This document shows positions 7,962 to 26,602 of a stretch of 64,000 nucleotides of DNA, piece by piece. Origin of the DNA: Tabrizicola caldifontis (GTDB lineage Bacteria > Pseudomonadota > Alphaproteobacteria > Rhodobacterales > Rhodobacteraceae). The notes beneath the pieces are model-generated. The model was not told the origin of the DNA. It made no database searches and worked only from the letters and a program-made list of their open reading frames with translations. The stretch spans positions 62,001 to 126,000 of the forward strand of contig NZ_SIJH01000012.1 of NCBI RefSeq assembly GCF_004762095.1. Reading direction: 5' to 3'. The stretch's first letter is position 1. Every line of letters begins with the position of its first letter. The position numbers and the translations under genes are program-made.

Positions 7962-9066
7962 TCATCGGTGTCGTCGGCCTTGGCGCGATGGGTCTGGGGA
8001 TCGCGCAGGTGTTTGCCCAGGCAGGCCATCCGGTACGGGCAACCGATGCCGCGGACGCCGCCCGCGCATCGGCCCGCGAACGAATGGCGGCCGCCCTGGC
8101 CCCCAGGGTCGCCAAGGGAGCGATGACCGGGGCCGAGCGCGACGCCACGCTTGCCCGGCTGACCGTGGTGGACACGGTGGAGGACATCGCCCCCGCTGGT
8201 CTGGTGATCGAGGCTGTGGCCGAACGGCTGGAAGTCAAGCAGGCGGTGTTCCGATCTCTGGAGCCGCTTCTGCCCGCCGACGCGGTGCTGGCCACGAATA
8301 CCTCATCCCTTTCAGTCGCGGCGATCGCCGAAGGGCTGGCGCGGCCCGGTCAGGTGCTGGGCCTGCACTTCTTCAACCCCGCCCCGGTGATGAAGCTGGT
8401 AGAACTCGTGGCCCATGCCGGAACCACCGCCGCCGCGCTGGATCTGGCGCGCAGCCTTGCCGAAGGCGCGGGCAAGGTGGTCATCGCCTGCCCCGACCGT
8501 CCGGGCTTCATCGTCAACCGCTGCGCCCGGCCCTATTATGGCGAGGCACTGGCGCTGCTGGAGGAAGGCCGAACCGCCACCGAGATCGACGCGGCAATGG
8601 TGGCGGCAGGATACCGGCTTGGCCCCTTCGCGCTGATCGACCTGATCGGCGCCGACATCAACCTGGCCGCGACCGAAAGCCTTGCGGCGGCGATGGGGGG
8701 CCACCCGCGCTATCATGTGTTCAGGGCGCTGCGCGACCAGGTCGCGCGGGGCGAGCTGGGGCGCAAGAGCGGGCGGGGTTTCGTCTTTCCCGCCGAGCCG
8801 GCGCCACCTCCCGCCGACGCCGAGGCCATCGCCCTGCGGATCGAGGCCGCCTTGGCAAACGAGGCCGCCTGGCTACTGTCCGAAGGAGGGGTGACGGCTG
8901 AAGGCATCGACACGGCGATGAAGCTGGGCCTGAATTTCCCGCGTGGCCCCTTCGAGGCCCGCGCGCGGCACGGGGCAGACCGCATCCGCGCCACGCTCGC
9001 CGCGCTGGAGGCCGCCGCGCCCCCGCATCTGAAAACCCGCTACCTGCCCGCACCGGAGCCAAGCCC

Positions 9067-9070
<4 letters not shown>
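7958..9070 (+). CDS. 3-Hydroxyacyl-CoA dehydrogenase
   Basis: The 370-residue protein starts at the ATG overlapping the hydratase stop; the same frame stays open upstream but there is only antiparallel noise within the hydratase gene. GVVGLGAMGLGIAQVFAQAG is the NAD-binding loop. NTSSLSV and LHFFNPAPVMKLVELV contain the catalytic histidine-glutamate pair. A second C-terminal helical domain, beginning near residue 290, is present in the longer PaaH-like forms. It oxidises a 3-hydroxyacyl-CoA, probably 3-hydroxyadipyl-CoA-like, to the 3-oxo form. It overlaps the thiolase start by four bases. Confidence 0.93.
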
Positions 9071-10242
<1,172 letters not shown>

Positions 10243-12161: not shown

Positions 12162-12172
12162 GGAGACGCAGC

Positions 12173-12743: not shown

Positions 12744-14306
12744 TCAGGCGAAGCTGCGGATCGTCTGGATAGCACCGTCGAGCGCCTTGCCTTCCTCATC
12801 CTTAAGGGCAGCCTCGCGCAGGCGGCGGCACCAGTCGGCTGCGTCGTCACGCCCGGCAATCATCAGCGTCGCAGCGATGACGCGGTCGAACTTAGACAGC
12901 CCCCGCGCGTGGGTGTCGGAATAGCCCTTGATCAGGCGGCGGCAGCGGATCAGTTCCACGGCAAGGTCATAGTTGCGCGGCACCTCGGCCAGGGCGGTTT
13001 CCAGCCAGCGGGCAAGATGCGCCTGTTCCTGCGCGTGGCGCAGGGTGCGGCGGCGCCAGCCCTTCAGGCCACCCAGCACATGCAGCATCAGGAAGGCGCG
13101 CAAGGAGTCGGTGCGCAGGTGCCGCCCCTTGTCGAACCAGCGCGTCAGGCGGGCCATCCATTTCGGGCTGGCCTCGACCTTTGCGCCCAGCCGCGCAGGG
13201 AACATGCCGACGATCTCTTCCGCCCTCGGGTGGAAGAATTCGGTCAGGTGCAGCAGGTTGCCGTCCTTCACGCGCATTTCACCACGGATGCGGTCGAAAC
13301 GGCGGGCGCGGGTCTTGAGGTCGGCCACCCGGATCACGTCGTCATAGGCCATCGCATTGGCAATGTATTTCGCTGCCTCTCGGGTCAGCACCCAGCCCTT
13401 TTCTGCGCTGTCGCGGGCCTGCACCGTGGCCAACCGGTCGAGGTATTCGGCGCCATAGGCAAGATCCTGGAACTCCACCACCTTGCGCAGGCCGGGCATG
13501 GCCATCTCGGCGGCAGGCTCTGGCAGGGCCGAGACGCGGGCGGCCAGCGCGTTCCATTGTGCCATCAGTCGCGCCGGGCCTGACACTGCCGTCGCCGTGC
13601 GGGAAGGCGGCGCAGCCACCGCTTCCGCCGCAGGATTGGCCGCGACCTCGAAGGCGGCAGCGAAAGCGCGCAGCGACCCCTCTACCCCCTTGCCGCTTGC
13701 GCGGATCGCGGCCTCGAAGGCCTCGCGCGGGAAGGGCAGCACCCCCGACCCGGCCAGCGCCCCGAACAGTGAGGCCGAGATGACCGAACCGTTTCGTACG
13801 GCCACCGCATCGAAATCGGCCGCAATGAAACGGCGTGCGGCGATTTCGGCTGCTGCGCGCACCTCTTCGGCAGGGGCGATGCCGTCACCCGGCACCATCT
13901 TTTCCGACACCGCCAGCGCGCGGTGGGTCGAGGCGATCAGCGTGGTCCGGTCGGGCGTGACGAAACCGCGGATGATGGCGCGACCGGCCTCCATCATCTC
14001 GGCGGCGATCATGATGTCCACGTCGCCGGGCGCGGGCATCAGGGAAAAGACCTGCACCGGGTCGCCGGGACGGTGCGGGGCCATCTCGACGTAGTAGACC
14101 GTGGCGCCGGTGCGCTGCGACACGCCCGCGACCGAGGTCGCCTGGGCGGCATAACCTTGCGAGCGCGCCACATCCTCGACCCAGCCGGTCAGCACCCCGC
14201 CGCCCTGCCCGCCCACCGCAAGTATCGCCAGCTTGATGATGCCGGACAGGCGCGGATCGAGCGTGCCTTTGCCCAACTGGTCGGACAGTGTTTCATGCAG
14301 CGTCAT
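12744..14306 (-). CDS. iorB: Indolepyruvate ferredoxin oxidoreductase, beta subunit with C-terminal extension
   Basis: A 520-residue protein. Residues 21-200 are the gamma-like domain of 2-oxoacid:acceptor oxidoreductases, with AVGGQGGGVLTGWVEDVARS as the CoA/nucleotide loop and ATSVAGVSQRTGATVYYVEM as the following conserved block. A long helical C-terminal extension resembles the extra domain fused to proteobacterial IorB proteins. The start at 14306 overlaps the alpha-subunit stop (ATGA at 14303-14306). With IorA it decarboxylates an aryl 2-oxoacid and transfers the acyl group to CoA, giving an acyl-CoA. Indolepyruvate is the textbook substrate; given the neighbours, isatinate (2-aminophenylglyoxylate) is an attractive alternative. 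Confidence 0.9.
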   Translation of the reverse strand: MTLHETLSDQLGKGTLDPRLSGIIKLAILAVGGQGGGVLTGWVEDVARSQGYAAQATSVAGVSQRTGATVYYVEMAPHRPGDPVQVFSLMPAPGDVDIMIAAEMMEAGRAIIRGFVTPDRTTLIASTHRALAVSEKMVPGDGIAPAEEVRAAAEIAARRFIAADFDAVAVRNGSVISASLFGALAGSGVLPFPREAFEAAIRASGKGVEGSLRAFAAAFEVAANPAAEAVAAPPSRTATAVSGPARLMAQWNALAARVSALPEPAAEMAMPGLRKVVEFQDLAYGAEYLDRLATVQARDSAEKGWVLTREAAKYIANAMAYDDVIRVADLKTRARRFDRIRGEMRVKDGNLLHLTEFFHPRAEEIVGMFPARLGAKVEASPKWMARLTRWFDKGRHLRTDSLRAFLMLHVLGGLKGWRRRTLRHAQEQAHLARWLETALAEVPRNYDLAVELIRCRRLIKGYSDTHARGLSKFDRVIAATLMIAGRDDAADWCRRLREAALKDEEGKALDGAIQTIRSFA

Positions 14307-16450
14307 GGTGTGGCCTCGAAGGTCAGGCAGCGGGCGGCGCGGCGGGCTTGCAGCCAGGCGATGATCCGGGCACGGAACCGGGCAAAGCGCGCCTCCCACG
14401 GGCCGGGGTTGTGCACCACGTCGGCGCGGTAGAACGACGGGCAGAGGACGGCGGCATCTGCCACTTCGCCGCAGTTCCCGCAGCCGACACAGCTTTGGTC
14501 GATATGGGCCACGGGGTCGTCGCGCAGTGGATCGTCAAGCTTCTTCAGCGACAGCGAGGGGCAGCCCGACAGCCGCATGCAGGCGTGGTCGCCTGTGCAG
14601 ACCTCCTCATCCACGCCGAAGCGGGGGGCTTCGACCCGGCGCCCTTCCCTTATCGCCTTCTGCATCAGCGGCTTTTCGCGGCGTTGCCGGTTCAGCATGC
14701 ATTCGGATGATGCGACAATGACCTTCGGCCCCGGAGTGTCGGTCGTCAGCGCCTCGCGCAGGACATCGCGCATCCGGCCCACGTCATAGGTCCGGTCCAC
14801 CTGGCGCACCCAGTCGATGCCAATGCCCTTGAGCGCCTTGGCGATGGGATGTCTGGTGGACTTGGTCGGGTTCTCGGCGCGACTGGACATGATGTCCTGC
14901 CCACCCGTTGCGGCGGAATAGTAGTTGTCGACGATCACCGCCACGCCATCCGACTTGTTGAAGGCCATGTTGGTGAAGCTGGAGGAAAGGCCGTTGTGCC
15001 AGAACCCGCCGTCACCGATGATCGCAACCGGGCGGCGTTCGCCCCCCCCGTCGAAGGCGGCATTGGCGGCGGGGCCCAGGCCATAGCCCATTGTCGCCCC
15101 GCCGATTTCGAACGGGGGCAGCGCGGCGAACAGATGGCAGCCAATGTCCGCGCTGATCTGCAGCTTGCCGGTTTCCTTCTGCACCAGCTTCATCGCGGCG
15201 AAGATCGGGCGTTCCGGGCAGCCGGTGCAGAAGCCGGGCGGGCGGATCGGCACCGTCTTCGTCAGGTCCGGGATCTGCGGCCGATCCTCGTTTGGCGCGC
15301 GCACCATGGCAGGCAGCATCTCGGGCGCGGCCTCCTTCAGGAAGGCACCGATCGCGTCCAGCATGACCTGGCCGGTATATTCTCCGGCCATCGGGAAGAT
15401 GTCCTTTCCGCGCAGGCGAACGGTGGAGCCCGCGCGATACAGGAAGGTGGAAAGCTGCTGTTCGATGAACTCTGGCTGGCCTTCCTCGACCACCAGCACC
15501 TGATCCTTGCCAGCGCAGAATTCAAGAAACTCGGACGACAGCAGCGGGTAGGTCACGTTCAGGACGTAGAGTGGAACCTGCGTGTTCCCCCAGATGTCCG
15601 CCAGACCCAGCCGCTGCAACGCGCGGATGACGCCGTTGTACATGCCGCCCTGCAGGATCAGCCCGACCTTGGCTGCCTTCGGCCCGAACACCTCGTTCAA
15701 GCCGCGTTCGCGGATGAATTTCTCGGCGTTGGGCCAACGGTTCCTGATCTTGTCCTGCTCATGCGCATAGGACATCGGCGGCAGCACGACGCGGGCGAAA
15801 TCGGACTGCGGATCCGACAGTGCCTCTTTCACCGTAAGCTTCGGGCGCTGGTTGTCGCGGGTCGTGAAACTGCCGGTCACATGGCAGGACCGGATGCGCA
15901 CCATAAGCATGACGGGGGTGTTCGAGGCCTCGGACAGTTCGAATCCGTCCTTAACCGACTTGACGATGCTGGGCAGGTTCGGCCGAGGGTCCAGAAGCCA
16001 GAACTGCGATTTCATCGCAAAGGCGTGGCTGCGTTCCTGCATGATCGAGGAACCCTCGCCGTAATCCTCGCCCACGATGATCAGGGCGCCGCCGTTCACG
16101 CCGCTTGAGGCAAGGTTCGCCAAGGCGTCCGAGGCGACGTTCACGCCCACCGAGCCTTTGAACGTCACCGCCCCGCGGATCGGATAATGGACCGAGGCCG
16201 CCAGCATCGCCGCTGCCGCTGCCTCGTTCGCGTTGGCCTCGAAGCGGATGCCAAGCTCCGAGAGCAGTTCCTCGGCATCGGCCAGCACGTCCATCAGATG
16301 GCTGATCGGCGCGCCCTGGTAGCCGCCGACATAGCCGACACCGTTTTCCAGCAGCGCCTTGGTGATCGCCAGAATGCCTTCGCCGGTGAAGGTCTGGCCC
16401 TCGCCCAGCCTCAGATGCTCTACCTCTGCCTTGAAGGACCGTTCGGCCAT
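14303..16450 (-). CDS. iorA: Indolepyruvate ferredoxin oxidoreductase, alpha subunit
   Basis: A 715-residue subunit with the full family order. The pyrimidine-type domain carries GYVGGYQGAPISHLMDVL near residue 40. The thiamine-diphosphate domain has CTGCPERP near 415 and GDGGFWHNGLSSSFTNMAF followed by DNYYSAATGGQD. The C-terminal ferredoxin-like part has CTGDHACMRLSGC and CVGCGNC, the cysteines for two iron-sulfur clusters; the spacing of the first set is looser than the classical CxxCxxC. It performs thiamine-dependent oxidative decarboxylation of an aryl 2-oxoacid with transfer to CoA. It lies directly downstream of MarR in the leftward isatin-hydrolase operon. Confidence 0.93.
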   Translation of the reverse strand: MAERSFKAEVEHLRLGEGQTFTGEGILAITKALLENGVGYVGGYQGAPISHLMDVLADAEELLSELGIRFEANANEAAAAAMLAASVHYPIRGAVTFKGSVGVNVASDALANLASSGVNGGALIIVGEDYGEGSSIMQERSHAFAMKSQFWLLDPRPNLPSIVKSVKDGFELSEASNTPVMLMVRIRSCHVTGSFTTRDNQRPKLTVKEALSDPQSDFARVVLPPMSYAHEQDKIRNRWPNAEKFIRERGLNEVFGPKAAKVGLILQGGMYNGVIRALQRLGLADIWGNTQVPLYVLNVTYPLLSSEFLEFCAGKDQVLVVEEGQPEFIEQQLSTFLYRAGSTVRLRGKDIFPMAGEYTGQVMLDAIGAFLKEAAPEMLPAMVRAPNEDRPQIPDLTKTVPIRPPGFCTGCPERPIFAAMKLVQKETGKLQISADIGCHLFAALPPFEIGGATMGYGLGPAANAAFDGGGERRPVAIIGDGGFWHNGLSSSFTNMAFNKSDGVAVIVDNYYSAATGGQDIMSSRAENPTKSTRHPIAKALKGIGIDWVRQVDRTYDVGRMRDVLREALTTDTPGPKVIVASSECMLNRQRREKPLMQKAIREGRRVEAPRFGVDEEVCTGDHACMRLSGCPSLSLKKLDDPLRDDPVAHIDQSCVGCGNCGEVADAAVLCPSFYRADVVHNPGPWEARFARFRARIIAWLQARRAARCLTFEATP

Positions 16451-16453
16451 GGC

Positions 16454-16942
16454 TCAGATCTCGTGCTTGCGGATGTTGGTCAGCATCTTCTGCAGCGTGC
16501 CTACGAAGGCGCGGCGCTCGTCGTCGGGGATGCCGCGGAACATGCGGGCATGCGCCTCGGCCATGCGGGGCCAGAGCGTTTCAAAGGCCGCGCGCCCGGC
16601 TTCGGTGATGTAGACCCGCGTCGCGCGGCTGTCGGCGGCGTCGGCCTCGCGGCGGACCAGCCCGTCAGCCGCCAGCTGGTCCAGCGCACGCGACAGGGTG
16701 GACTGTTCGACCACCGAATAGACCGCCAGTTCGCGGATCAGCGGCCCCTCGATCACCGACAGGACAGCAAGGGCCCGCATCTTCGGCGTGGTCAGGCCAA
16801 GGCTGGCCATTTCTTCACGCAGAGAGGCGTTGTAGCGCCCCATGATGCGGTTCATCAGATAGGGTGCATAGTTCGAAAGGCCGATCTCACCCAGCCGCGG
16901 CAGGGTTTCGGGCGGCCGGTCAGGGGGCGACTGGTCGGTCAT
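16454..16942 (-). CDS. MarR-family regulator of the isatin-hydrolase divergon
   Basis: The 162-residue protein has the MarR layout: an N-terminal helix (YLMNRIMGRYNASLREEMAS), helix-turn-helix in GPLIRELAVYSVVEQSTLSR, and wing in DGLVRREADAADSRATRVYI with the conserved DSR. The start at 16942 overlaps the stop of the FAD oxidoreductase (ATGA at 16939-16942); a much longer frame upstream is antisense noise. MarR proteins are known sensors of indole-3-acetate in auxin-degradation loci. Here the gene sits within the operon it probably controls, and the overlapping palindromes at 19379-19398 are its likely site. Confidence 0.9.
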   Translation of the reverse strand: MTDQSPPDRPPETLPRLGEIGLSNYAPYLMNRIMGRYNASLREEMASLGLTTPKMRALAVLSVIEGPLIRELAVYSVVEQSTLSRALDQLAADGLVRREADAADSRATRVYITEAGRAAFETLWPRMAEAHARMFRGIPDDERRAFVGTLQKMLTNIRKHEI

Positions 16943-18504
16943 GCGCCCAGCCTCTTTGCCGCGAGAAAGCCCGAGCCGCCGCCCAGACCGGGGCCGGGAT
17001 GGGTGGAGGCGCCGATGTGGATCAGACCACGTACGAGGCCGGTGCCGTTCGTCGAATGCGGATAAGGACGGAATATGAAGAACTGGTCGATGGTGCAAAG
17101 GCCACCATAGGGGTCGCCACCGACAAGATTGACATTCATCCGCTCCAGATCGGCGGGGGAATAGGCCCGCCGCGCCAGCTTGATCCGGTCGAAATCCTTG
17201 ATGTGCCGTTTCAGGATCGTCTCGATCCGGTCGGCGAAGGCTTCGCGGGTGGCCTCGCTCCATGTGCCATCGGTGGCGATCTCGTCTGCCGCATCGCCCT
17301 TCACCACGCGGGGCGCGTCGGGGATCTGCAGCCACAGGATCGCCTTGCCCTCCGGGCAGCGCGAGGGGTCCAGCCGGTGCGGCTGACCCACGCAGATCGT
17401 GGGCGTGGCAGGCAGCATTCCCCGCTCTGCTTCGTTCGAGGCTTTCGAGACGGAATCGATCCCGTCCGCCAAGTGGATCAGCGCCACGTCGTCCAGCCCC
17501 GGCGACAGCCATTTCGGGTGCTGGTCGAGCGCGTAATGCAGCTGAAAGTTTCCCCGGCCGTGGCGGAAGGCCTTCGCCGCCGCCTGATCTTCGGGCAGGT
17601 TCACGTCGCGCAGCAGGCGGCCCTGCAATTGCCCCGGCGCGACAGAAGCCAGAACCGAGGCGCAGCCGATCTCTTCTCCGTCGGCCAGAGCCACACCCCG
17701 CACCTTGCCATCACGCACGACGATCCGGTCCACATCGGCCCCGCAGCGGATTTCGCCACCCTTCTCCTCGATCAGCGCCTTGAACGCAGACACCCCGGCA
17801 CCCGAGCCACCCTTGACGATCGGTGCCCCCGCTGCCTCCAGCGCAAAGGCGATGACCTTGCCCATCTGTCCGGAATAGGTGCTTTCCGGCGTCAGCCCGC
17901 AGTGCAGCACCCACGGCGCATAGAGCGCCTGGACGGCAGGCGAGGCGTAGGTCGTCTCCAGCCAGCCCCGCGCCGGTACCAGCGCCCGGCCGAACCAGGC
18001 AGCCAAGCCCCGCAGCCCCCGCTTGCGCACCTGACCCCACATGAGCTTTGCCGTGGGCCAGGACCACAGGGAACCGCCGAGAAGTGCAAACAGGAAGGGC
18101 GCGTCGGCCTCGATGCCACCGACATCGCGGGCATGGGCATCGCCATCCCCCGGAGCAAGCGCATTGAAGGCGGCGATGTTCTTCGCCCGGTCGGTGGTCA
18201 GCACCAGCGCCTCGCCGTTCGACCGCAGGACAGCCGTGGGGTGCGGCGTGTGGCAGTAGTCGAAACCATGCCGTGCGAGGTGGGGGCCAAGCATGGCCCC
18301 CGCCGGCGAAGTCATGAACAGAACCCAAGTCGCGGCCATCACGTCGTGGCGGAAGCCGGGCAGAGTGATCTCTTCCGTGCGCAGGCATCCCCCGGGGGTT
18401 GCCTCGCGTTCCAGAATCAGCACGCGGTCGCCTTTCAGCGCCAGCATTGCACCTGCGACCAGCGCGTTGATCCCGCTGCCGACAATGACGTGATCGGGCC
18501 GCAT
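16939..18504 (-). CDS. CrtI/PYROXD2-like FAD oxidoreductase (first copy)
   Basis: A 521-residue flavoprotein of the phytoene-desaturase-related class. The dinucleotide-binding loop is VGSGINALVAGAMLALKGDR at residues 8-27, then ATPGGCLRTEEITLPGFRHD. The C-terminal FAD block includes NVNLVGGDPYGGL and GASTHPGPGLGGGSGFLAAK. It has no membrane segment or export signal. The class performs flavin-dependent dehydrogenation, but its substrates are rarely known. A paralogue of nearly equal length (522 residues) is encoded divergently at 19427-20995 and shares the LVGGD and GxG end motifs, so the two may act on successive intermediates or pair up. The stop lies one base before the isatin hydrolase stop region begins, giving tight operon spacing. 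Confidence 0.85.
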   Translation of the reverse strand: MRPDHVIVGSGINALVAGAMLALKGDRVLILEREATPGGCLRTEEITLPGFRHDVMAATWVLFMTSPAGAMLGPHLARHGFDYCHTPHPTAVLRSNGEALVLTTDRAKNIAAFNALAPGDGDAHARDVGGIEADAPFLFALLGGSLWSWPTAKLMWGQVRKRGLRGLAAWFGRALVPARGWLETTYASPAVQALYAPWVLHCGLTPESTYSGQMGKVIAFALEAAGAPIVKGGSGAGVSAFKALIEEKGGEIRCGADVDRIVVRDGKVRGVALADGEEIGCASVLASVAPGQLQGRLLRDVNLPEDQAAAKAFRHGRGNFQLHYALDQHPKWLSPGLDDVALIHLADGIDSVSKASNEAERGMLPATPTICVGQPHRLDPSRCPEGKAILWLQIPDAPRVVKGDAADEIATDGTWSEATREAFADRIETILKRHIKDFDRIKLARRAYSPADLERMNVNLVGGDPYGGLCTIDQFFIFRPYPHSTNGTGLVRGLIHIGASTHPGPGLGGGSGFLAAKRLGA

Positions 18505-18505
18505 C

Positions 18506-19297
18506 TTATGCCCTGGGAACCAGCGCCAGCGCCCGGATGGGCGAGCCCGTGCCCTGCTTGATCTTCAGCGGCGCCGCAATCAGGATTGCCCCTTTGGGCG
18601 GCAGCCTGTCGAGGTTGGCAAGGCTGGCAAGGCCGAAGCAGTTATGCTTGTGCAGCAGGTTGTGCGCAGGGAAAGGCGGGTTCATCCCCCCGGCTTGGCC
18701 CGCATCGGTGCCGATGCACTGGCTGCCCCAGCCCACGATGCCCTTGTCCAGAAGATACTGGATCACCTCGGCCGTCGGCCCCGGGGTGTGCGGGCCGGTT
18801 TCGTTGGCGTTGAGGAACAGCGCCTCGTCATGTGCGCGCTTGTCCCAATCGGACCGCAGCACGACCCATTCGCCCTTGCCAATGGCGCCATGCTGCGCCT
18901 CCCATGCCTTCACATGGTCGATGGTCAGCAGGAAATCAGGGTCGGCTGCGCATTCCTTGCTGAAGTCCAGCACGTTCACCGGCGCGATCAGCCGCTGCAC
19001 GTCCAGCGTGTCGGTATAGCCGTCGGGATAGTCCTTGCCGGTGATCCAGTGATGCGGCGCATCAAAGTGCGTGCCGGAATGTTCCCCCAGTTCCAGCCAG
19101 TTCCAGGCCCAGAAGGGGCCGTCCTTGTCGTATTCGCTGATCCGGTGAATCTTGATCGGCGGGGTGTCCTTCGCCAGTTCCGGCGGCAGCTTCAGCAGAG
19201 GCGTTTCGGGGCCAAGCACGCCCGAACAGTCCACCACCTCGATCCCGCCCGAGGCGAGCATCCCGGCAAGGGACGAAAGCACGTTCGCAGAGGTCAT
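18506..19297 (-). CDS. Isatin hydrolase (cyclase/kynurenine formamidase superfamily)
   Basis: A 263-residue metal-dependent hydrolase with the family motif HSGTHFDAPHH at residues 73-83, giving His73, His77, Asp79 and His83. His212 (in PAHNLLH) and Ser225 (in FGLAS) also fall at the numbers I recall for the metal ligands, water channel and proton wire of the Labrenzia isatin hydrolase structure. Length and flanking blocks (SEYDKDGPFWAWNW, GSQCIGTDAGQAGG) agree. The enzyme opens isatin, an indole breakdown product, to isatinate (2-aminophenylglyoxylate). It is first in the leftward operon, followed within two bases by the FAD oxidoreductase. Kynurenine formamidase, usually near 210 residues, is the main alternative. 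Confidence 0.75.
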   Translation of the reverse strand: MTSANVLSSLAGMLASGGIEVVDCSGVLGPETPLLKLPPELAKDTPPIKIHRISEYDKDGPFWAWNWLELGEHSGTHFDAPHHWITGKDYPDGYTDTLDVQRLIAPVNVLDFSKECAADPDFLLTIDHVKAWEAQHGAIGKGEWVVLRSDWDKRAHDEALFLNANETGPHTPGPTAEVIQYLLDKGIVGWGSQCIGTDAGQAGGMNPPFPAHNLLHKHNCFGLASLANLDRLPPKGAILIAAPLKIKQGTGSPIRALALVPRA

Positions 19298-19367
19298 AGG
19301 AATCTCCCTGTTGGCCGGACCAGTCCGGCTGTCCCATGCGCCGGTTTCGATCCGGCGTCATGGAATC

Positions 19368-19400
19368 ATGCTAGACAGATTTAAATGCATTTGCAAATAT
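19368..19400. promoter_or_regulatory. Face-to-face promoters over overlapping palindromes
   Basis: Three palindromes overlap: ATTTAAAT (19379-19386), AAATGCATTT (19383-19392) and ATTTGCAAAT (19389-19398). Rightward, TAGACA (19372-19377) and AAATAT (19395-19400) are 17 bases apart. Leftward, TTGCAA (19396-19391) and TAGCAT (19373-19368) are also 17 apart. The two promoters therefore occupy the same 33 bases and the palindromes fill their shared spacer. A MarR dimer bound here would shut both operons at once. Confidence 0.65.
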
Positions 19401-19426
19401 CCCCGCGTCATGGGTGGCGGAGGAAC

Positions 19427-20995
19427 ATGGCCAACGACTTTGACGCAGTCCTGATCGGGGCGGGCCACAACACGCTGGCCGCTGCCCTGCACCTTTCCGC
19501 AAGGGGCTGGAAGGTCGGGGTGTTCGAACAGGCAGGCGTGGCAGGGGGCGCGGTCAAGACCGGCGAATACACCCTGCCGGGCTTTCGCCACGACTGGGCG
19601 GCGATGAACCTTTCGCTTTTTGCCGGAAGCGCGTTTTTCCAGAGATATGGTGAAGAACTGGGCCGCCACGGCTGCGCCTTCGTTCCTGTGGACCGGCCCT
19701 TTTCATCCTCCTTCCCTGACGGCTCATGGGTCGGCGTCTCGACTGACCGGACCGAGACGCTGGCCGCAATCCGCGCAGTGTCGCCGCGTGATGCCGAAAC
19801 CTGGACACGCCTGTGTGACGGCTTCGGGGCAGAGGCGCCGCATCTGTTCGGCCTTCTCGGCTCGCCCATGCGCTTTCGTGCGCTTGCATATTTCATGTTC
19901 AAAACACTGCGTGCAAAGGGTATTGGCGGCACGCTGGACATGGGCCGGTTCCTTCTGTCCTCTCCCCGCGCCTGGCTGGAGGAAACCTTCGAGCACCCGC
20001 ATGTCCGTGCGATGCTGGGCGCCTGGGGGATGCACCTGGATTTCGCCCCCGATGTCGCTGGCGGCGCAATGTTCCCCTATCTGGAGGGGATGGCGGGCCA
20101 GGCCTTCGGGATGGTCATCGGCCAGGGCGGCGCGGATACGGTGACGCGGGCGCTGGTCGCTGCAATCAAGGCGCGCGGCGGGATGGTGGAAACCGGGGCT
20201 ACCGTCACCCGCATCCTGCATCAGGGTGGCAGGGCGTCAGGAATCGAGCTGGCCGACAGCCGACGGATCGCGGCCCGACGGGCCGTGATCGCCGGTGTCG
20301 CCCCCCGGGCCCTGGCCCGGCTGACCCGCGGCACAACCCCTGCCTTCGACGGCGCTTTGCAGACGTTCCGTCATGCGCCTGGCACCATGATGATCCATCT
20401 GGCAATGGACGCGCTGCCCGACTGGCGCGCGGGCGCGGTGCTACAGCGCCATGCCTATGTCCACCTGGCCCCCAGCCTGGACCAGATGGCGCGAACCTAT
20501 GCCCAGGCGCTGGCGGGCCAGTTGCCGGACGAGCCGATCCTTGTCGTGGGCCAGCCCACCGTGTTCGACCCCTCCCGCGCGCCAGAGGGGAAACACGTCC
20601 TCTGGGTGCAGGTCCGCATGGCCCCCGGCACCATCGCCGGCGACGCGAAGGGCGAAATCAGCGCGACCGGCTGGGCCGAGGCCGCCGAACCCTTTGCCGA
20701 ACGCGCGCTGTCGATCCTTGAGGCCCACGCCCCCGGCACCCGCGCGAAGATCCTGGCGCGCCGGATCGTGACGCCGGTCGAGCTGGAGGCCGACAACCCC
20801 AACCTCGTCGGGGGCGATCAGGTCTGCGGAAGCCACCATCTGGCGCAGCATTTCCTGTTCCGCCCCGTGCGCGGCCATGCCGACGGATCAACCCCCATTG
20901 CCAACCTGCACCTGACCGGAGCCGCCGTCTGGCCCGGCGCGGGCACCGGCGCAGGGCCGGGGTTTCTGCTTGCGCGGAAGCTGGCCGGCAACTGA
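19427..20995 (+). CDS. CrtI/PYROXD2-like FAD oxidoreductase (second copy)
   Basis: The start at 19427 follows the ribosome site GGCGGAGGA; an ATG 42 bases upstream lies inside the operator. The 522-residue product begins with a dinucleotide loop (VLIGAGHNTLAAALHLSARG), then GVAGGAVKTGEYTLPGFRHD. It ends with LVGGDQVCGSHHLAQHFLFR and GAAVWPGAGTGAGPGFLLAR. It is a clear paralogue of the protein at 16939-18504. The class catalyses FAD-dependent dehydrogenation; the substrate is unknown. It is the first gene of the rightward operon, 35 bases before the ABC substrate-binding protein, which suggests that it acts on the imported compound early in the pathway. Confidence 0.85.
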   Translation: MANDFDAVLIGAGHNTLAAALHLSARGWKVGVFEQAGVAGGAVKTGEYTLPGFRHDWAAMNLSLFAGSAFFQRYGEELGRHGCAFVPVDRPFSSSFPDGSWVGVSTDRTETLAAIRAVSPRDAETWTRLCDGFGAEAPHLFGLLGSPMRFRALAYFMFKTLRAKGIGGTLDMGRFLLSSPRAWLEETFEHPHVRAMLGAWGMHLDFAPDVAGGAMFPYLEGMAGQAFGMVIGQGGADTVTRALVAAIKARGGMVETGATVTRILHQGGRASGIELADSRRIAARRAVIAGVAPRALARLTRGTTPAFDGALQTFRHAPGTMMIHLAMDALPDWRAGAVLQRHAYVHLAPSLDQMARTYAQALAGQLPDEPILVVGQPTVFDPSRAPEGKHVLWVQVRMAPGTIAGDAKGEISATGWAEAAEPFAERALSILEAHAPGTRAKILARRIVTPVELEADNPNLVGGDQVCGSHHLAQHFLFRPVRGHADGSTPIANLHLTGAAVWPGAGTGAGPGFLLARKLAGN

Positions 20996-21030
20996 TACAT
21001 GACCAAGAACCACCAACAGGGAAAACGGAA

Positions 21031-22554
21031 ATGAACCTCAACCGCCGCAGCCTTCTGAAGCTGTCCGCCGCATCGGCTGCCTTGGGCGGCCTCGGCCTGC
21101 CCGCCGCCGCGCAAGGAATCGACGAGCTGGTGATCGCCTACAACGTCAACCTGCCCTCGTGGGATCCGACGGTGGGCCCTAGCGCGGTGAACCCGACGAT
21201 CCAGGGGATCTACCAGTCGGTCTTCGACCAGTACATCCTGCAACAGCCCGACCTGAAACCCGCCCCCGGCCTTCTGACCGAATGGGGCTGGAACGATGAC
21301 AAGACCCAGGTCTGGATGACCGTGCGCGAGGGCGTGACCTGGCATGACGGCAGCCCCTTCACCGCCGAGGACGTGGCCTGGAACCTCGCGCGCGTGGCAA
21401 ATCCTGAAACCGGCAGCCCGATCCAGTTCGTCTGGGGGACGCTGGCCAACCACCGGGTCGAGGGCAACCGCGTGATTGCCGATGTGGTGCAGTTCGACCC
21501 GACGATCTTCAAGTGGATGTATTTCCTGACCGGCTATGTCCTGCCCAAGGCCTATTACGAAAAGGTCGGCCCCGAGGGCTTCGAGGCCAAACCCATCGGC
21601 ACCGGCCCCTACATGGTGGACAGCTTCGAAAGGAACGCCTTCGTGCGGCTGAAGGCCAACCCCAACTACTGGGGCAGCAAGCCGGAATTCGAGACCGTAA
21701 CGATCAAGTTCGTCCCCGACGCCGCCGCCCGGGTGGCCGAGGTGGAATCAGGCAACAGCCACGTCACGCTGGAAATGCCGTACGAGGAATATGACCGGCT
21801 CAAGGGCGGCCCGCTGGCCGGCGTTGCGGCGCCGATCTCGGACATCGGGATGATCTTCCTGAACGACATCGACGTGATGCTGGACCCGAACGTCCGCAAG
21901 GCCGCGGCCCATGCGATCGACAAGCAGGCGATCATCGACCGGCTTCTGTCGGGCTATGGCGTGAAGATCGACACGCTGCAAACCCCCGAATACGACGCCT
22001 ACGATCCCTCGATCACCGTAGAATACAACCCCGAGAAGGCGATGGAACTGCTGGCGGCCTCGGGCTACGGGCCGGACAATCCGGTGAAGTTCAAGATCCA
22101 GACCACCAAGGGCTTCAAGCCCAAGGATTACGAGATGATCCAGGCCATCGTCGGGCTGTGGCGCAAGGTCGGGATCGAGGCCGAGATCGAGGTCTACGAG
22201 ATCGCCAAGCATTACGAACTGCGCGCGGCCGACCAGCTGGCCCCGGCGGCCTTCTACAACTGGGGCAACTCGGTGGGCGACCCGACGACCTCGACGGGAT
22301 TTGCCATGTTCGGCCCCAGCCCGCATTCGGTCTGGGACGGGCAGGATCTGATCGACATGATCGGGCCGCTGTGGGGTGAGAAGGACGAGGAGAAGCGGAT
22401 CGAGGGCTGGAAGGCGGTGGACCGTTACATCGCGGAAAACGCGCTGGTCATCCCGCTTCTGCAATATGTCCAGCCGATCCTGCACGCCCCGGGCGTGGTG
22501 GTGACGCCGCATGCCTCGGGCGCACTGCTGCCGCATCTGATGAAGCGGGCGTAA
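21031..22554 (+). CDS. ABC transporter substrate-binding protein, peptide/opine family (SBP_bac_5)
   Basis: A 507-residue periplasmic binding protein. The N-terminus MNLNRRSLLKLSAASAALGG is a twin-arginine signal ending near AAAQG, so it is exported folded. LVIAYNVNLPSWDPTVGPSA, the YQSVFDQ region, and VWMTVREGVTWHDGSPFTAEDVAWNLAR are characteristic of family 5 (DppA/OppA/NikA). Despite the family name many members bind opines, sugars or other solutes. It is the binding partner of the permeases and ATPases that follow. Two strong hairpins separate it from the first permease, a common way to make more binding protein than membrane complex. Confidence 0.92.
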   Translation: MNLNRRSLLKLSAASAALGGLGLPAAAQGIDELVIAYNVNLPSWDPTVGPSAVNPTIQGIYQSVFDQYILQQPDLKPAPGLLTEWGWNDDKTQVWMTVREGVTWHDGSPFTAEDVAWNLARVANPETGSPIQFVWGTLANHRVEGNRVIADVVQFDPTIFKWMYFLTGYVLPKAYYEKVGPEGFEAKPIGTGPYMVDSFERNAFVRLKANPNYWGSKPEFETVTIKFVPDAAARVAEVESGNSHVTLEMPYEEYDRLKGGPLAGVAAPISDIGMIFLNDIDVMLDPNVRKAAAHAIDKQAIIDRLLSGYGVKIDTLQTPEYDAYDPSITVEYNPEKAMELLAASGYGPDNPVKFKIQTTKGFKPKDYEMIQAIVGLWRKVGIEAEIEVYEIAKHYELRAADQLAPAAFYNWGNSVGDPTTSTGFAMFGPSPHSVWDGQDLIDMIGPLWGEKDEEKRIEGWKAVDRYIAENALVIPLLQYVQPILHAPGVVVTPHASGALLPHLMKRA

Positions 22555-22570
22555 TGGCCTGACGACGGAA

Positions 22571-22635
22571 CCGGGGGGCACCCCCCGGCCCCCCGTAGGA
22601 TACTTGTGGAAAGAATGAAGGGGCAGATTGCCCCT
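22571..22635 (+). repeat. Two hairpins and GGATACTTG element between binding protein and permease
   Basis: CCGGGGGG (22571-22578) and CCCCCCGG (22581-22588) form a perfect 8-bp stem around CA. AGGGGCA (22619-22625) and TGCCCCT (22629-22635) form a perfect 7-bp stem around GAT. Between them GTAGGATACTTGTGGAAAGA resembles the element at 2755-2790. The stems probably attenuate readthrough or protect the upstream mRNA. Confidence 0.6.
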
Positions 22636-22645
22636 ACCGGGGCCG

Positions 22646-23656
22646 ATGCCAATCCTTCGCATCCTTCTTCTGCGGCTTCTGACGACCGTCGTCACCCTTG
22701 CGGGTGTTGCGGTGATCGTCTTCTTCGTGATCCGGGTCGTGCCCGGCAACCCCATCGCCATGATGTTGCCGCCGGGTGCAACCGAGGCAGACATCGCCCG
22801 GTTGTCGGCACTTTACGGCCTGGACAAGCCGTTGGTGACCCAGTTCTGGATCTGGGTTTCAGGCGTCCTGCAGGGCGACTTCGGCACCTCGATCTCCACG
22901 CGCCAGCCGGTGCTCGGGCTGGTCCTTGGCCGGTTGCCCGCGACACTGGAGCTGTCGGTCATGGCACTGGTCATGGCCGTGGTGCTGGGCGGAGCGGCGG
23001 CACTGACCGGCACGCGCTACCGCGGCGGGCGGACAGAAGGCGCGATCGACGTGGCCAACGGCATGGCGCTGTCGGTGCCGGATTTTCTGTGGGGGCTGAT
23101 CCTGATCCTGCTGTTTGGCGTTCTGATGCCGGTCTTCCATATCTCGGGCCGGGTGACGCCCTCGCTCGACCTGCCCTTCTCCACGAACTTCTACCTGTTC
23201 GAAAGCCTGATCCGGCTGCGCTTCGACCTGTGGGCCGACATCGTGGCGCACATGTTCATGCCCGCGCTGGCGCTGGCGATCCCGCTGGCCGCGATCATCG
23301 GGCAGCTCCTGAAGCAGAGCCTGAAGGAAACGATGAACCTGGATTACGTCACGCTTGCCCGCACCAAGGGCTATGGCGAGACGCGCGTGATCCTGCGCGA
23401 GGCCCTGCGCAACGCAGCCCTGCCTACGCTGACGCTGGTTGGCGTACAGTTCACCTTCCTGATCGGCGGCACGGTGATCATCGAGCGGCTGTTCAGCTAT
23501 GAGGGCCTTGGCAACATGGCCATCGACGCGGTGATCAACCGCGACCTGCCGCTGATCCAGGGGATCGTGCTGTTGTTTGCCGTGATCTTCACCGCAGTGA
23601 ACCTGATCGTGGATCTGCTTTATGCCGTCCTGAACCCGAGGCTGCGCCATGCTTGA
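22646..23656 (+). CDS. ABC transporter permease, DppB type
   Basis: A 336-residue inner-membrane permease from the ATG at 22646; an earlier in-frame TTG at 22628 lies within a hairpin and is less likely. A first membrane segment (VVTLAGVAVIVFFVIRVVPG) is followed by the periplasmic GDFGTSISTRQPV block, several hydrophobic segments, and the cytoplasmic coupling loop DYVTLARTKGYGETRVILRE. GTVIIERLFSYEGLG is the usual C-terminal signature. It forms the channel with the permease at 23649-24500. Its stop overlaps that gene's start by eight bases. Confidence 0.92.
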   Translation: MPILRILLLRLLTTVVTLAGVAVIVFFVIRVVPGNPIAMMLPPGATEADIARLSALYGLDKPLVTQFWIWVSGVLQGDFGTSISTRQPVLGLVLGRLPATLELSVMALVMAVVLGGAAALTGTRYRGGRTEGAIDVANGMALSVPDFLWGLILILLFGVLMPVFHISGRVTPSLDLPFSTNFYLFESLIRLRFDLWADIVAHMFMPALALAIPLAAIIGQLLKQSLKETMNLDYVTLARTKGYGETRVILREALRNAALPTLTLVGVQFTFLIGGTVIIERLFSYEGLGNMAIDAVINRDLPLIQGIVLLFAVIFTAVNLIVDLLYAVLNPRLRHA

Positions 23657-24500
23657 CGGACGCACCCTTGTCCGGCGCCGCGCGGGGCTGCGGCTGTGGC
23701 TGTCGGCCGGGTGGCTGACCCTGCTCTGCCTTGCTGCCCTGCTTGCACCCTGGGTCGCGCCGAAGGATCCCCTGGCGCAGGATCTGTTCCTTGGCCGAAT
23801 GCCCCCGTTCTGGATGACCGGCGCGGAACCCGGCTACTGGCTGGGCACGGATTCGCTGGGGCGTGATGTGCTTTCGCGCCTCATCCATGGCGCGCGGGTG
23901 GCGCTTACTGTGGCGCTGGTCGCCGGGACGATCACTTGTATTGTCGGGGCGACCCTGGGGCTTCTGGCCGGGTTCCTGCGCGGCTGGGTCGATATGGTGA
24001 TCAGCCGCCTGATCGACATATGGATGGCCTTTCCGCCGGTCCTGTTCTCGATCCTTCTCATTGCCGTACTCGGCCCTGGCCTGATGTCGATCATCATCGC
24101 CATCGTCGTCATCGACTGGACCCGCTTTGCGCGCGTCGTCCGGGCCGAGGCAATGGCCCAGGGCGCGATGGATTACGTTGCCTCGGCCCGCGTGGCCGGG
24201 CGCGGGCGGATCAGCACCTTGATCCGCGAGATACTGCCCAACGTGCTGCCGACCATCGTGGTGCTCTTGACGCTGGAAATGGGCATCGCAGTGATCGTCG
24301 AGGCGATCCTCAGCTTCGTGAACCTGTCGATCTCGACCGACGACCCGACCTGGGGCGGCATGATCTCGGAAGGCCGGGCCTCCATACATCAAGCGTGGTG
24401 GGTGCTGGTCGCGCCCCTGGTCACGCTGTTCCTTACTGTCCTGTCCTTCAGCCAGCTGGGCGAAGGATTGAAGGACCGCTTCGACCCGGTGCTGCGATGA
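23649..24500 (+). CDS. ABC transporter permease, DppC type
   Basis: A 283-residue inner-membrane permease with the N-terminal LRLWLSAGWLTLLCLAALLA segment and the motif LGTDSLGRDVLSRLIHGAR before the transport domain, typical of DppC/OppC. The coupling loop MDYVASARVAGRGRISTLIR and the final FSQLGEGLKDRFDPVLR are also standard. It overlaps the DppB-type gene by eight bases and the first ATPase gene by ATGA (24497-24500). It is therefore translated with them as one importer for the ligand bound by the family-5 binding protein. Confidence 0.92.
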   Translation: MLDGRTLVRRRAGLRLWLSAGWLTLLCLAALLAPWVAPKDPLAQDLFLGRMPPFWMTGAEPGYWLGTDSLGRDVLSRLIHGARVALTVALVAGTITCIVGATLGLLAGFLRGWVDMVISRLIDIWMAFPPVLFSILLIAVLGPGLMSIIIAIVVIDWTRFARVVRAEAMAQGAMDYVASARVAGRGRISTLIREILPNVLPTIVVLLTLEMGIAVIVEAILSFVNLSISTDDPTWGGMISEGRASIHQAWWVLVAPLVTLFLTVLSFSQLGEGLKDRFDPVLR

Positions 24501-25366
24501 CCGCGCTGGTGATCCGCAACCTGTCCGTCCGGCTGCGGAAGGGCCCGCCGCTTTTGCGGCGCGTCTCGCTGGACCTTGCCCCTGGCGAGGTGCGGGGGCT
24601 GGTGGGCGAATCCGGCGCCGGCAAGTCGATGATCGGCAAGGCGGTGCTGGGCATCCTGCCGCCATCGGTGGAGATCACGGGGGGCGAGATCCTGCTGGAG
24701 GGCACCGATCTTCTGCGCCTGCCCCCGGCCGACCGGCGCCGCCGCATCGGGGCCAGTTGCGCGCTGATCCCGCAAGACCCGCTGACCGCGCTGAACCCCA
24801 GCCACCGGATCGGGCCCCAGATCACCGACCGGCTGGTGGACATCCTTGGCTGGACGCGCCGAAACGCTGACGCCCGGGCCCGCGAACTGCTGGCCGAGGT
24901 GCAGATCCCTGATCCCGATCGGGTGATGCGATCCTACCCGCACGAGCTTTCGGGAGGCATGCGCCAGCGCATCCTGATCGCCTCGGCCTTTGCGGCCGAA
25001 CCGCGGCTGATCGTGGCGGATGAACCAACCACGGCGCTGGACGTTACGGTGCAGAAGCAGATCCTGAAGCTGATCGCCGGCATGCAGGCGCGGCACGGCA
25101 CCGCGATCCTGTTCGTCACACATGACCTGGGCGTGGTCTCGAAGGTTTGCCAGCGGCTCTCGGTCCTCTATTCCGGCATGGTGGTCGAGGATGCCCGCGT
25201 GGCCGATTTCTTCCGCGCACCGCGCCATCCCTATTCGGCGGCCCTTCTTGCGGCCACGCCGAAATACACCGACCCCACCGCTGGGCTGAACCCCGTGCCC
25301 GACGCCGTGATCGAGGCCGTCAGGGCCGAGGTCGCCGCCTTCGATCGGGAGGTGGCGCATGGCTGA
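24497..25366 (+). CDS. ABC transporter ATP-binding protein, DppD type
   Basis: The 289-residue ATPase starts at the ATG overlapping the upstream permease stop; the open frame further upstream is a shadow of that permease. Walker A is GESGAGKS near residue 38, the Q-loop is in ALIPQDPLTALNP, the signature is LSGGMRQRI, Walker B is LIVADEPTTALDV, and the switch histidine is in VTHDLGVV. A C-terminal region with PRHPYSAALLAATPK is the oligopeptide-specific extension, although its iron-sulfur cysteines are not evident. It powers import together with the second ATPase. Confidence 0.92.
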   Translation: MTALVIRNLSVRLRKGPPLLRRVSLDLAPGEVRGLVGESGAGKSMIGKAVLGILPPSVEITGGEILLEGTDLLRLPPADRRRRIGASCALIPQDPLTALNPSHRIGPQITDRLVDILGWTRRNADARARELLAEVQIPDPDRVMRSYPHELSGGMRQRILIASAFAAEPRLIVADEPTTALDVTVQKQILKLIAGMQARHGTAILFVTHDLGVVSKVCQRLSVLYSGMVVEDARVADFFRAPRHPYSAALLAATPKYTDPTAGLNPVPDAVIEAVRAEVAAFDREVAHG

Positions 25367-26159
25367 CCTTTACGAGGTGCAGAATCTGCGCCTGTCGCTG
25401 GCGGACATGACCGCGAAGCCGCTGCTGGGTGCCGCCCCACGGATCGAGATCCTGAAGGGCCTGACCTTCACCATACCAAAAGGCGCGGCAGTCGGCATCG
25501 TCGGCGGTTCGGGATCGGGCAAGTCCACGCTGGGCCGGGCACTTGTGCGGCTGCTGGAGCCATCGGGCGGGGCGATCCGCTTCGGCGGCACCGACCTCAC
25601 CCACCTTTCCGATGCGGCCCTGCGGCCATTGCGGCGGCGGTTCCAGATGATCTTTCAGGATCCGTTATCCTCGCTGAACCCGCGCCACAGGGTCGGCACG
25701 ATTATCGCCGAACCCCTTCGCCTGCACGGTTTCGACGGCATTCCCGCCCGTGTCGCCCGCGCGCTGGATCAGGTTGGACTGCCGCAGTCCTTCGCCGCCC
25801 GCTACCCGCACGAACTGTCCGGCGGCCAGCGCCAGCGCGTGGGCATCGCCCGCGCCATCGCGCTGGAACCTGATTTCATCCTTGCCGACGAAATCGTGTC
25901 CGGCCTGGACGTGTCGTCGCAGGCGCAGGTGCTGAACCTGCTGGAGCGCCTCGTGAAGGATCTCGGCCTGACGCTGGCCTTCATCAGCCACGACCTGTCG
26001 GTGATCCGGCGGCTTTGCCAGCACACCATCGTGCTTTACCAGGGCACGATCGTCGAGAACCGTCCGACGCCGGACCTGTTCTGCGAACCCCGGGCCGACT
26101 ACACGCGCGAACTGCTGTCAGCGATCCCGTTGCCCGATCCCAATCAGCCGTGGGGCTGA
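25359..26159 (+). CDS. ABC transporter ATP-binding protein, DppF type
   Basis: A 266-residue ATPase with Walker A GGSGSGKST near residue 51, Q-loop in MIFQDPLSSLNPRH, signature LSGGQRQRVGIARAI, Walker B LILADEIVSGLDVSSQ-type segment (FILADEIVSGLD) and switch histidine in ISHDLSVI. The extension PRADYTRELLSAIPLPDP is that of the DppF/OppF family. It overlaps the DppD-type gene by eight bases and is the last gene of the rightward operon. Its 3' end overlaps the converging thioesterase by 16 bases. Confidence 0.93.
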   Translation: MADLYEVQNLRLSLADMTAKPLLGAAPRIEILKGLTFTIPKGAAVGIVGGSGSGKSTLGRALVRLLEPSGGAIRFGGTDLTHLSDAALRPLRRRFQMIFQDPLSSLNPRHRVGTIIAEPLRLHGFDGIPARVARALDQVGLPQSFAARYPHELSGGQRQRVGIARAIALEPDFILADEIVSGLDVSSQAQVLNLLERLVKDLGLTLAFISHDLSVIRRLCQHTIVLYQGTIVENRPTPDLFCEPRADYTRELLSAIPLPDPNQPWG

Positions 26160-26602
26160 GGCGCACCCACGGGACGGTGTTCGGCTGCGGGCTGGTGCAT
26201 CAGGCTTTCCAGCTTCGCCTTCACCTCTTCCGGCCAGGGCATCGAGGTGTGGCTGTCCAGCCAGCTTGCCGCCAGCACCTGTTCTACCGACCAGCGGTGC
26301 TCATCGCCGCAGTGGATCGTATGGCGCAGCCGGACCGAAGATCTGCCGACCTTGAGGATCGAGACCCGGAAGGTCAGCCGGTCACCGAAGAACGAAGGTT
26401 TCGAGAAATCGCAGGACAGATGTACCGTCGGCGTGCCCCAACGTTCCTTCCAGATGATTTCGTGCCAGGGCCAACCGATGTGGGCCCAGAATTCCTCGAC
26501 CACGCCGTTCAGGATGTTCAGATAGGCCGGGTAATAGGCGGTGCCGGAAATGTCGCAGTCGCCGAAGCGAAGGTCTCTGTCGGTCACGAAACAGACTGTC
26601 AT
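26144..26602 (-). CDS. Hotdog-fold acyl-CoA thioesterase
   Basis: A 152-residue single hotdog domain. RFGDCDISGTAYYPAYLNIL near residue 12 is the 4-hydroxybenzoyl-CoA thioesterase core with its conserved aspartate, and HLSCDFSKPSFFGDRLTF follows. It should hydrolyse an acyl- or aroyl-CoA in the cytosol. The gene converges on the ABC ATPase with a 16-base overlap of coding ends, so the two transcripts are complementary there. It is a distant relative of the thioesterase at 1214-1621. If the oxidoreductase makes an aryl-CoA, this enzyme could release the free acid, but no sequence feature proves that link. Confidence 0.88.
   Translation of the reverse strand: MTVCFVTDRDLRFGDCDISGTAYYPAYLNILNGVVEEFWAHIGWPWHEIIWKERWGTPTVHLSCDFSKPSFFGDRLTFRVSILKVGRSSVRLRHTIHCGDEHRWSVEQVLAASWLDSHTSMPWPEEVKAKLESLMHQPAAEHRPVGAPQPHG

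Follow-up and report, generated by a model that had tools for sequence, protein, structure and literature searches.

The window analysed here, a stretch of 64,000 nucleotides of Tabrizicola caldifontis (C4:62001-126000 of the 3.48 Mb genome G000), carries the gene of an isatin hydrolase (IsaH) in an operon with iorA and iorB, which encode a predicted 2-oxoacid oxidoreductase. About 11 kb from it lies a second operon, headed by the gene of a 2-aminobenzoyl-CoA monooxygenase/reductase-type protein (ACMR). Taking the gene content together with the conserved gene order, we consider it fairly likely that IorAB is an isatinate:CoA oxidoreductase that uses isatinate and releases a CoA ester. IsaH and IorAB would then probably provide a second, ligase-free entry to 2-aminobenzoyl-CoA.

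In the proposed route, IsaH would open isatin to isatinate (2-aminophenylglyoxylate), a reaction of isatin hydrolases known from the literature, and IorAB would convert isatinate and CoA to 2-aminobenzoyl-CoA and CO2 by an oxidative decarboxylation that requires no ATP. The electrons would pass to the iron-sulfur clusters of IorAB and then to a carrier, and ACMR and the beta-oxidation genes would consume the product. A CoA ligase would serve as a separate entry for free anthranilate, probably derived from tryptophan through a tryptophan dioxygenase encoded next to the ligase and a kynureninase encoded elsewhere in the genome. The route builds on the general chemistry of 2-oxoacid oxidoreductases and of ACMR. 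Phenylglyoxylate:acceptor oxidoreductase, which turns an aryl-glyoxylate and CoA into aroyl-CoA and CO2 and so yields benzoyl-CoA, differs from IorAB in subunit make-up and substrate. This chemical idea had been put forward from the window alone (hereafter the original prediction), and it is now better supported than could be known then, mainly through relatives that lack the ligase and through the fixed order of isaH and iorA.

Identity and phylogeny of IsaH and IorAB

The operon spans 12744-19297 on the minus strand in the order isaH (18506..19297), an FAD oxidoreductase gene of CrtI/CrtO-like type (FADox1; 16939..18504), a MarR regulator gene (16454..16942), iorA (14303..16450) and iorB (12744..14306). 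One base separates isaH from FADox1, FADox1 and the MarR gene overlap, three bases lie between the MarR gene and iorA, and the ATG of iorB overlaps the iorA stop codon. Because all spacings are gaps of at most three bases or short overlaps, the five genes very likely form one transcript.

IsaH (263 aa) matches isatin hydrolase B of Labrenzia aggregata (4j0n/4m8d) with an E-value of 1.2e-146 over residues 2-263, and PF04199 with 113.5 bits. Residues H73, H77, D79, H83, D198 and H212 are invariant across 13 aligned sequences; we take them as equivalents of the metal and catalytic residues of LaIHA (His69, His73, Asp75, His79, Asp193 and His207, as given in the accessible text of PMC6117287), the correspondence of numbers being our own assignment. 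Judged from its sequence, the window protein is an isatin hydrolase of the characterised type, sharing with the Labrenzia enzyme the full-length match and the metal-site residues; the consumer of isatinate is not discussed in the accessible part of that paper. Kynurenine formamidases match IsaH at only 8e-7, and this function was ruled out (arylformamidase model, 30.8 of 223 bits).

IorA scores 54.4 bits with TPP_enzyme_C (PF02775), and IorB 57.5 bits with POR (PF01558) in addition to DUF6537. IorB is also over the cut-off of NF006179, the PRK08312 subfamily (688.7 vs 348 bits). IorA reaches 281 bits with TIGR03336 (IOR_alpha), under the cut-off of 650.9, and therefore is not filed in the indolepyruvate ferredoxin oxidoreductase equivalog. 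In at least 98% of 128 IorA rows, the thiamine diphosphate (ThDP) motif GDGG at 479-482 and N509 are conserved, together with C408, C411, C438 and the C-terminal, ferredoxin-like cysteines C618, C624, C630, C654, C657, C660 and C670, all of them predicted iron-sulfur ligands. By these features, IorA as the ThDP-binding large subunit and IorB make up a two-gene 2-oxoacid oxidoreductase. No PDB relative of either protein was found at E<=0.001, with a profile search included for IorA. The gene set named in the original prediction (isatin hydrolase, IorAB, ACMR) is borne out by the PDB, Pfam and NCBIfam matches.

The IorA closest to that of the window, from Tabrizicola sp. TH137, is 93% identical. 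In a quick maximum-likelihood tree of the 128 rows with SH-aLRT support, the 73 IsaH-linked rows all fall within one clade of 85 (SH-aLRT 100), and the label of IsaH linkage changes 4 times on the tree, compared with 41.6 times in shuffles. Shortly past the ThDP motif, Gly517 and Asp519 do not vary among 74 IsaH-linked rows and 11 others of the same clade, and positions 517/519 differ in most of the 43 rows outside the clade; from this pattern, both residues are candidates for substrate choice. One IorAB outside the isatin clade (L094; G160) lies upstream of tryptophan dioxygenase and kynureninase genes, both confirmed by search, and of frames read as RidA, short-chain dehydrogenase (SDR) and crotonase, with ACMR near and no IsaH. 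The window's genome also holds a separate 1185-aa frame with POR_N at G000:C18:13124-13813 (L001, L004); it is probably a fused indolepyruvate-type oxidoreductase, a kind that we take to be the usual one for aromatic 2-oxoacids.

Linkage to ACMR and distribution of the CoA ligase

Among the 385 genomes of the class survey, 59 carry an IorB over the NF006179 cut-off, and 15 have a match to IsaH; identity is >=44% in 13 of these, and the other two matches are weak and partial. All 13 strong-IsaH genomes carry IorB, against 59 of 385 overall (hypergeometric 7.6e-12, the genomes not being independent), and both weak ones are not among the IorB matches. Seen from the other side, IsaH lies within ~9 kb of IorB in only 5 of 60 places (60 of the 63 over-cut-off places besides that of the window); therefore the IorAB family is broader than isatin, though IsaH goes with IorAB.

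Within 10 kb of the best 80 IsaH relatives among the matches listed, IorA is found at 69 loci, IorB at 66, FADox1 and a second FAD oxidoreductase (FADox2) at 55 each, the substrate-binding protein of a transporter at 51, ACMR at 21 and the ligase at one. At all 69 loci with IorA, the gene lies on the IsaH strand, 469-2784 bases downstream. At three of the 11 remaining loci (L232, L274, L278), the contig ends within 1.6 kb, and seven (L250, L254, L256, L259, L270, L282 and again L274) hold frames in which IsaH is joined to a kynureninase-like protein (KYNL); the last two are L248 and L284.

ACMR (4795..7080, minus strand) scores 1293 bits with NF006101 (cut-off 1078), a model that NCBIfam names bifunctional salicylyl-CoA 5-hydroxylase/oxidoreductase, and consists of an FAD monooxygenase half (PF01494) and an old-yellow-enzyme half (PF00724). 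The choice of 2-aminobenzoyl-CoA over salicylyl-CoA is judged from context only, that is, from the tryptophan dioxygenase, the anthranilate-CoA-ligase-like gene and RidA on the ACMR side. Our search for ACMR and the ligase covered 49 genomes with IsaH and IorA, taken from 50 of the 80 loci with L236 left out, 20 of which had been chosen for ACMR within 10 kb. ACMR is present in 48 of the 49, and in 28 of 29 once those 20 are excluded. The Mesorhizobium loci viewed read IorB-IorA-MarR-FADox1-IsaH / FADox2-transporter-ACMR-SDR-MarR-crotonase-acyl-CoA dehydrogenase-RidA, without a ligase.

In the window's genome itself, the missing ligase does not serve as a sign of a ligase-free entry, as the original prediction had taken it to do. 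It is literally true that the window has no aryl-CoA ligase, since none of the nine AMP-binding places of the genome lies inside it; one, at C4:60507-61550, lies just to its left. There, an anthranilate/benzoate-CoA-ligase-like gene (G000:C4:60072-61697) occupies a 585-aa frame that covers window positions -1928 to -171 and whose start codon is probably the ATG at -303, so that the apparent absence is an effect of the window edge, and a locus without ligase, tried as an explanation, was rejected. Such a gene just left of the window is one half of what the original prediction had named as speaking against it. The nearest PDB chain of the encoded protein is anthranilate-CoA ligase 4wv3 (1.6e-83), and its score with TIGR02262, the benzoate-CoA ligase family, is slightly under the cut-off (362 vs 375 bits); no 2-aminobenzoate model appeared among 25 of 105 NCBIfam rows. 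RidA, tryptophan 2,3-dioxygenase and the ligase-like gene follow one another on the same strand. The dioxygenase (276 aa; 1..565, minus strand; TIGR03036 424 bits, cut-off 390.7) crosses the left edge, extending 265 bases past it, 37 bases ahead of the likely start of the ligase, and the kynureninase of the genome is unlinked, on contig 1. As read from these genes, the genome has a normal ligase entry that belongs with tryptophan breakdown.

Support for a ligase-free entry comes from relatives, and the search proposed in the original prediction, for genomes with IsaH, IorAB and ACMR without this type of ligase, returned five of them in two lineages. Three are Mesorhizobium (Mesorhizobium sp. 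WSM4313, B2-4-3 and WSM3860; ligase absent at E<=1e-60) and two, G202 and G294, belong to family f91 (absent at E<=1e-80), of whose five genomes they are both of the IsaH-bearing ones. The best scores with the benzoate-CoA-ligase family in these five genomes are 192-273 bits, compared with 352-374 for ligase orthologues. The only other ligase-less genome among the 49 is a 2.3 Mb metagenome-assembled genome also without ACMR. In the class, 46 genomes were searched (45 with ACMR): 41 have the ligase at >=50% identity, G202, G294 and G193 (64% complete) have none at E<=1e-80, and G292 and G289 give only 37-38% matches. The arrangement is clearest on contig 18 of G202, where an IadF-like ligase, a thiolase-like gene, an SDR gene and IadDE-type Rieske genes (E 3.7e-139 to 9O71) precede IsaH, IorA and IorB, and a complete ACMR operon (RidA, thioesterase, acyl-CoA dehydrogenase, crotonase, MarR, SDR and ACMR) converges on the IorB side with no ligase between. 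In G294, a fragmentary ACMR shares a short contig with IsaH, and IorAB and the Rieske genes lie on another. Together with the position of IorA and the proximity of ACMR, these five genomes support the link from IsaH through IorAB to ACMR that the original prediction had drawn. We also considered whether an AMP ligase close by might stand in for it in the ligase-less Mesorhizobium and rejected this, the one at L317 being a long-chain fatty-acid ligase (NF005463, 1030 vs 869 bits).

The ligase is mostly missing from IsaH clusters that include ACMR: it is linked in 5 of 20 such cases versus 24 of 28 elsewhere (Fisher 5e-5, uncorrected for kinship and with some draft contigs). Reading by eye, we found it within ~10 kb of kynureninase in 12 of 22 ligase-positive genomes, and beside kynureninase on another contig in the nine other core Mesorhizobium genomes. 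In 17 genomes searched for tryptophan dioxygenase, all 12 ligase-positive ones have it, adjoining the ligase in four (that of the window, G391, G154 and G389); G202 and G294 gave no match, and the three ligase-less Mesorhizobium gave weak ones of 71-75 bits, still over the Pfam cut-off. Kynureninase is absent from G202, G294 and G403, and present in G395 and G396. Because the ligase-less genomes show no or weak tryptophan dioxygenase, the ligase probably handles tryptophan-derived anthranilate, and IorAB isatinate. The pattern would correspond to a single ACMR pathway fed from two sides, a reading of a correlation among related genomes with Fisher values that ignore kinship.

Known systems and competing explanations

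IorA and IorB are described as exclusive markers of the iad-like operons for auxin degradation, and the accessible text of the iad papers (PMC9613470, PMC12633357) gives no reaction for IadAB. The iad route passes through isatin and isatinic acid (PMC9613470, in part), and IadI, a hydrolase of the cyclase family, carries the annotation kynurenine formamidase (PMC12633357, in part). In this regard, the window resembles the iad loci of Variovorax, Bradyrhizobium and Achromobacter in IorA/IorB, the isatin/isatinic acid route and the hydrolase, and differs from them in that the iad route, in the accessible text of both papers, ends at anthranilate without mention of ACMR. The IadDE Rieske oxygenase was not found among the Pfam-scanned genes of window positions 1-30064, the only part of the window and genome scanned; genes of this type are present in G202, G335, G294 and L247, the last being a single locus of an uncultured Sedimentitalea that combines iad Rieske genes with IorAB, the ligase, ACMR-operon genes and a pair of IsaH-like genes (49% and 73%). 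The iad genes of PMC8383072, which are named by a different scheme and arranged in the manner of iac genes, were set aside as having no bearing on IorAB. With the system of PMC6221969, as far as its accessible text goes, the window shares ACMR, the beta-oxidation genes and the ligase, here just outside the window; the ligase-free isatin entry proposed here comes in addition. The anaerobic indoleacetate (iaa) pathway of Aromatoleum also leads from an indole compound to 2-aminobenzoyl-CoA, although with other genes and anaerobically (PMC9613470, in part). No statement of an IorAB reaction from isatinate to 2-aminobenzoyl-CoA was found in the literature searched, with most subscription journals outside its reach.

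Several observations weigh against isatinate as the substrate of IorAB, or against the ligase-free entry. The ligase is kept in 45 of the 49 genomes with IsaH and IorA, at >=73% identity. ACMR also occurs in 28 of 46 IorB-positive genomes without IsaH and, because it is so frequent there, co-occurrence alone is not specific. Twelve IorA rows of the isatin clade have no IsaH within ~9 kb (in one genome, IsaH is on another contig), and L248 and L284 hold IsaH-FADox1-MarR but, over the 10 kb to the right, neither IorA nor IorB; among the frames of L284 nothing was recognised as a ThDP replacement, and on that side of L248 gene calling returned no frame. A single loss may account for all three ligase-less Mesorhizobium, which are closely related, and G202 and G294 are drafts (92% and 83% complete), the ACMR of G294 being in fragments. 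In a Variovorax iad deletion strain, moreover, iadC-K2 alone restored anthranilate in full (2025 preprint PMC12633357, in part). That strain lacks iadA by its gene numbers and, we infer, iadB, whereby IadAB would be dispensable for anthranilate formation; the names iadA, iadB and iorA are not in the text of that paper. This result cuts both ways, since C8H7NO3, the formula of isatinic acid, and C7H7NO accumulate only in the iadC-K2 overexpression strain (same paper, in part), and isatinic acid thus builds up where IadAB is missing.

KYNL also bears on the substrate of the system. It is a kynureninase-like PLP protein whose best solved match is kynureninase 1qz9 (5.1e-19) and which is 28% identical to the kynureninase of the window's genome; the window has none. 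At 8 of the 80 loci it is in frame with an IsaH-like domain (two fusions were Pfam-checked, that of L262 was translated as one frame, and those of L250 and L274 rest on frame spacing only), and at 10 further loci it is separate and within 10 kb of IsaH. Examples are L254:8819-10789, L259 and L262:8807-10792 for fused copies and L258:1953-3056, L260, L237 and L241 for separate ones. L262 carries KYNL-IsaH, a thioesterase, IorA and IorB on one strand, and in L258 and L260, both from Hoeflea, KYNL adjoins ACMR. Judged by the chemistry of kynureninase, KYNL could split dioxindolylalanine into isatin and alanine.

IorAB could instead be an ordinary oxidoreductase of arylpyruvates such as indolepyruvate or phenylpyruvate, isatinate being converted to anthranilate by other means and the ligase making 2-aminobenzoyl-CoA. 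The family name and NF006179 speak for it, as do the ligase beside ACMR in the window's genome and its retention in most relatives, and in L049, whose IorAB belongs to the isatin clade, a PaaK-like gene (67%) and a putative prephenate dehydratase frame lie nearby. The formation of anthranilate by Variovorax without iadAB (PMC12633357, in part) also fits. We nevertheless regard this explanation as unlikely: the place of IorA behind IsaH is constant, genomes with ACMR and no ligase exist, the window's genome has the separate fused frame of indolepyruvate-oxidoreductase type, and no indolepyruvate-forming gene was recognised among the operon genes scanned.

It is more doubtful still that the ligase has to act after IorAB, either because IorAB turns isatinate into free anthranilate or 2-aminobenzaldehyde or because the CoA ester is cleaved by one of the module's thioesterases (1214-1621 or 26144-26602). 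The presence of these two 4HBT enzymes, the thioesterase between the KYNL-IsaH frame and IorA in L262, and C7H7NO and anthranilate in iad strains (PMC12633357, in part) agree with such an outcome, in which ATP would be spent to no purpose and which sits poorly with the retention of ACMR in ligase-less genomes. We give very little credence to the notion that the true substrates of IsaH and IorAB are a different lactam and a different 2-oxoacid, derived from an oxidised tryptophan: the 18 of 80 loci with KYNL fused or close to IsaH-like domains and the peptide-type transporter of the module would suit it, but the window IsaH matches a solved and assayed isatin hydrolase along its whole length, and the PLP enzymes could themselves release isatin.

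Neighbouring genes and meaning of the proposed route

ACMR heads an operon on the minus strand that continues with genes for an SDR (4055..4798; PF13561 154 bits), a MarR regulator (3624..4058; PF12802/PF01047), a crotonase, that is, an enoyl-CoA hydratase family protein of PRK08258 type (2812..3624; NF006107 484 bits, cut-off 330), an acyl-CoA dehydrogenase (1618..2754; PF00441 149 bits), a 4HBT acyl-CoA thioesterase (1214..1621; PF13279) and a RidA-type protein (813..1217; PF01042 73 bits). Divergent from ACMR, on the plus strand, runs a beta-oxidation set of an enoyl-CoA hydratase (7194..7961; PF00378 195 bits), a 3-hydroxyacyl-CoA dehydrogenase (7958..9070; PF02737 189 bits) and a thiolase near 3-oxoadipyl-CoA thiolase (9067..10242; PF00108 215 bits; NF006551 547 bits, under the cut-off of 605).

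Between the two operons, 11070-12664 holds a luciferase-like monooxygenase and a flavin reductase, distant from SfnG/RutA and RutF (186, 162 and 103 bits, all under cut-off), with a possible role in ring-amide or oxindole oxygenation; a 43-44% relative of the monooxygenase adjoins the Mesorhizobium ACMR operon. FADox2, likewise CrtI/CrtO-like and divergent from isaH (19385..20995, plus strand), flanks IsaH opposite FADox1, each being kept beside IsaH in 55 of 80 loci. It forms the transporter arm of the module with a peptide-type ABC transporter of one substrate-binding protein, two permeases and two ATPases (21031..26159, plus strand), and the second 4HBT thioesterase (26144..26602, minus strand) closes the module. 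The MarR regulator of the isaH operon matches 3cjn (1e-58) and 7kym (1.6e-22), the latter being one of the structures in an auxin MarR paper.

A longer ligase-free path can be drawn tentatively, by analogy: oxidised tryptophan, imported or made enzymically (e.g., dioxindolylalanine), might be cut by KYNL to isatin and alanine, isatin opened to isatinate by IsaH, and isatinate converted by IorAB to 2-aminobenzoyl-CoA for dearomatisation by ACMR and entry into the TCA cycle, and the same IorAB step might be what IadAB catalyses in auxin degraders of the iad type. We hold this extended scheme to be possible, with the odds rather against it.

If IorAB indeed acts on isatinate, the IorAB (IadAB) of iad auxin-degradation loci would gain a substrate, isatinate, and a product, 2-aminobenzoyl-CoA, and aerobic 2-aminobenzoyl-CoA metabolism would have an ATP-sparing entry. 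The ligase-less Mesorhizobium offer a natural yes/no test of the IorAB route, which would also account for how a genome can rely on ACMR while lacking a 2-aminobenzoate-CoA ligase.

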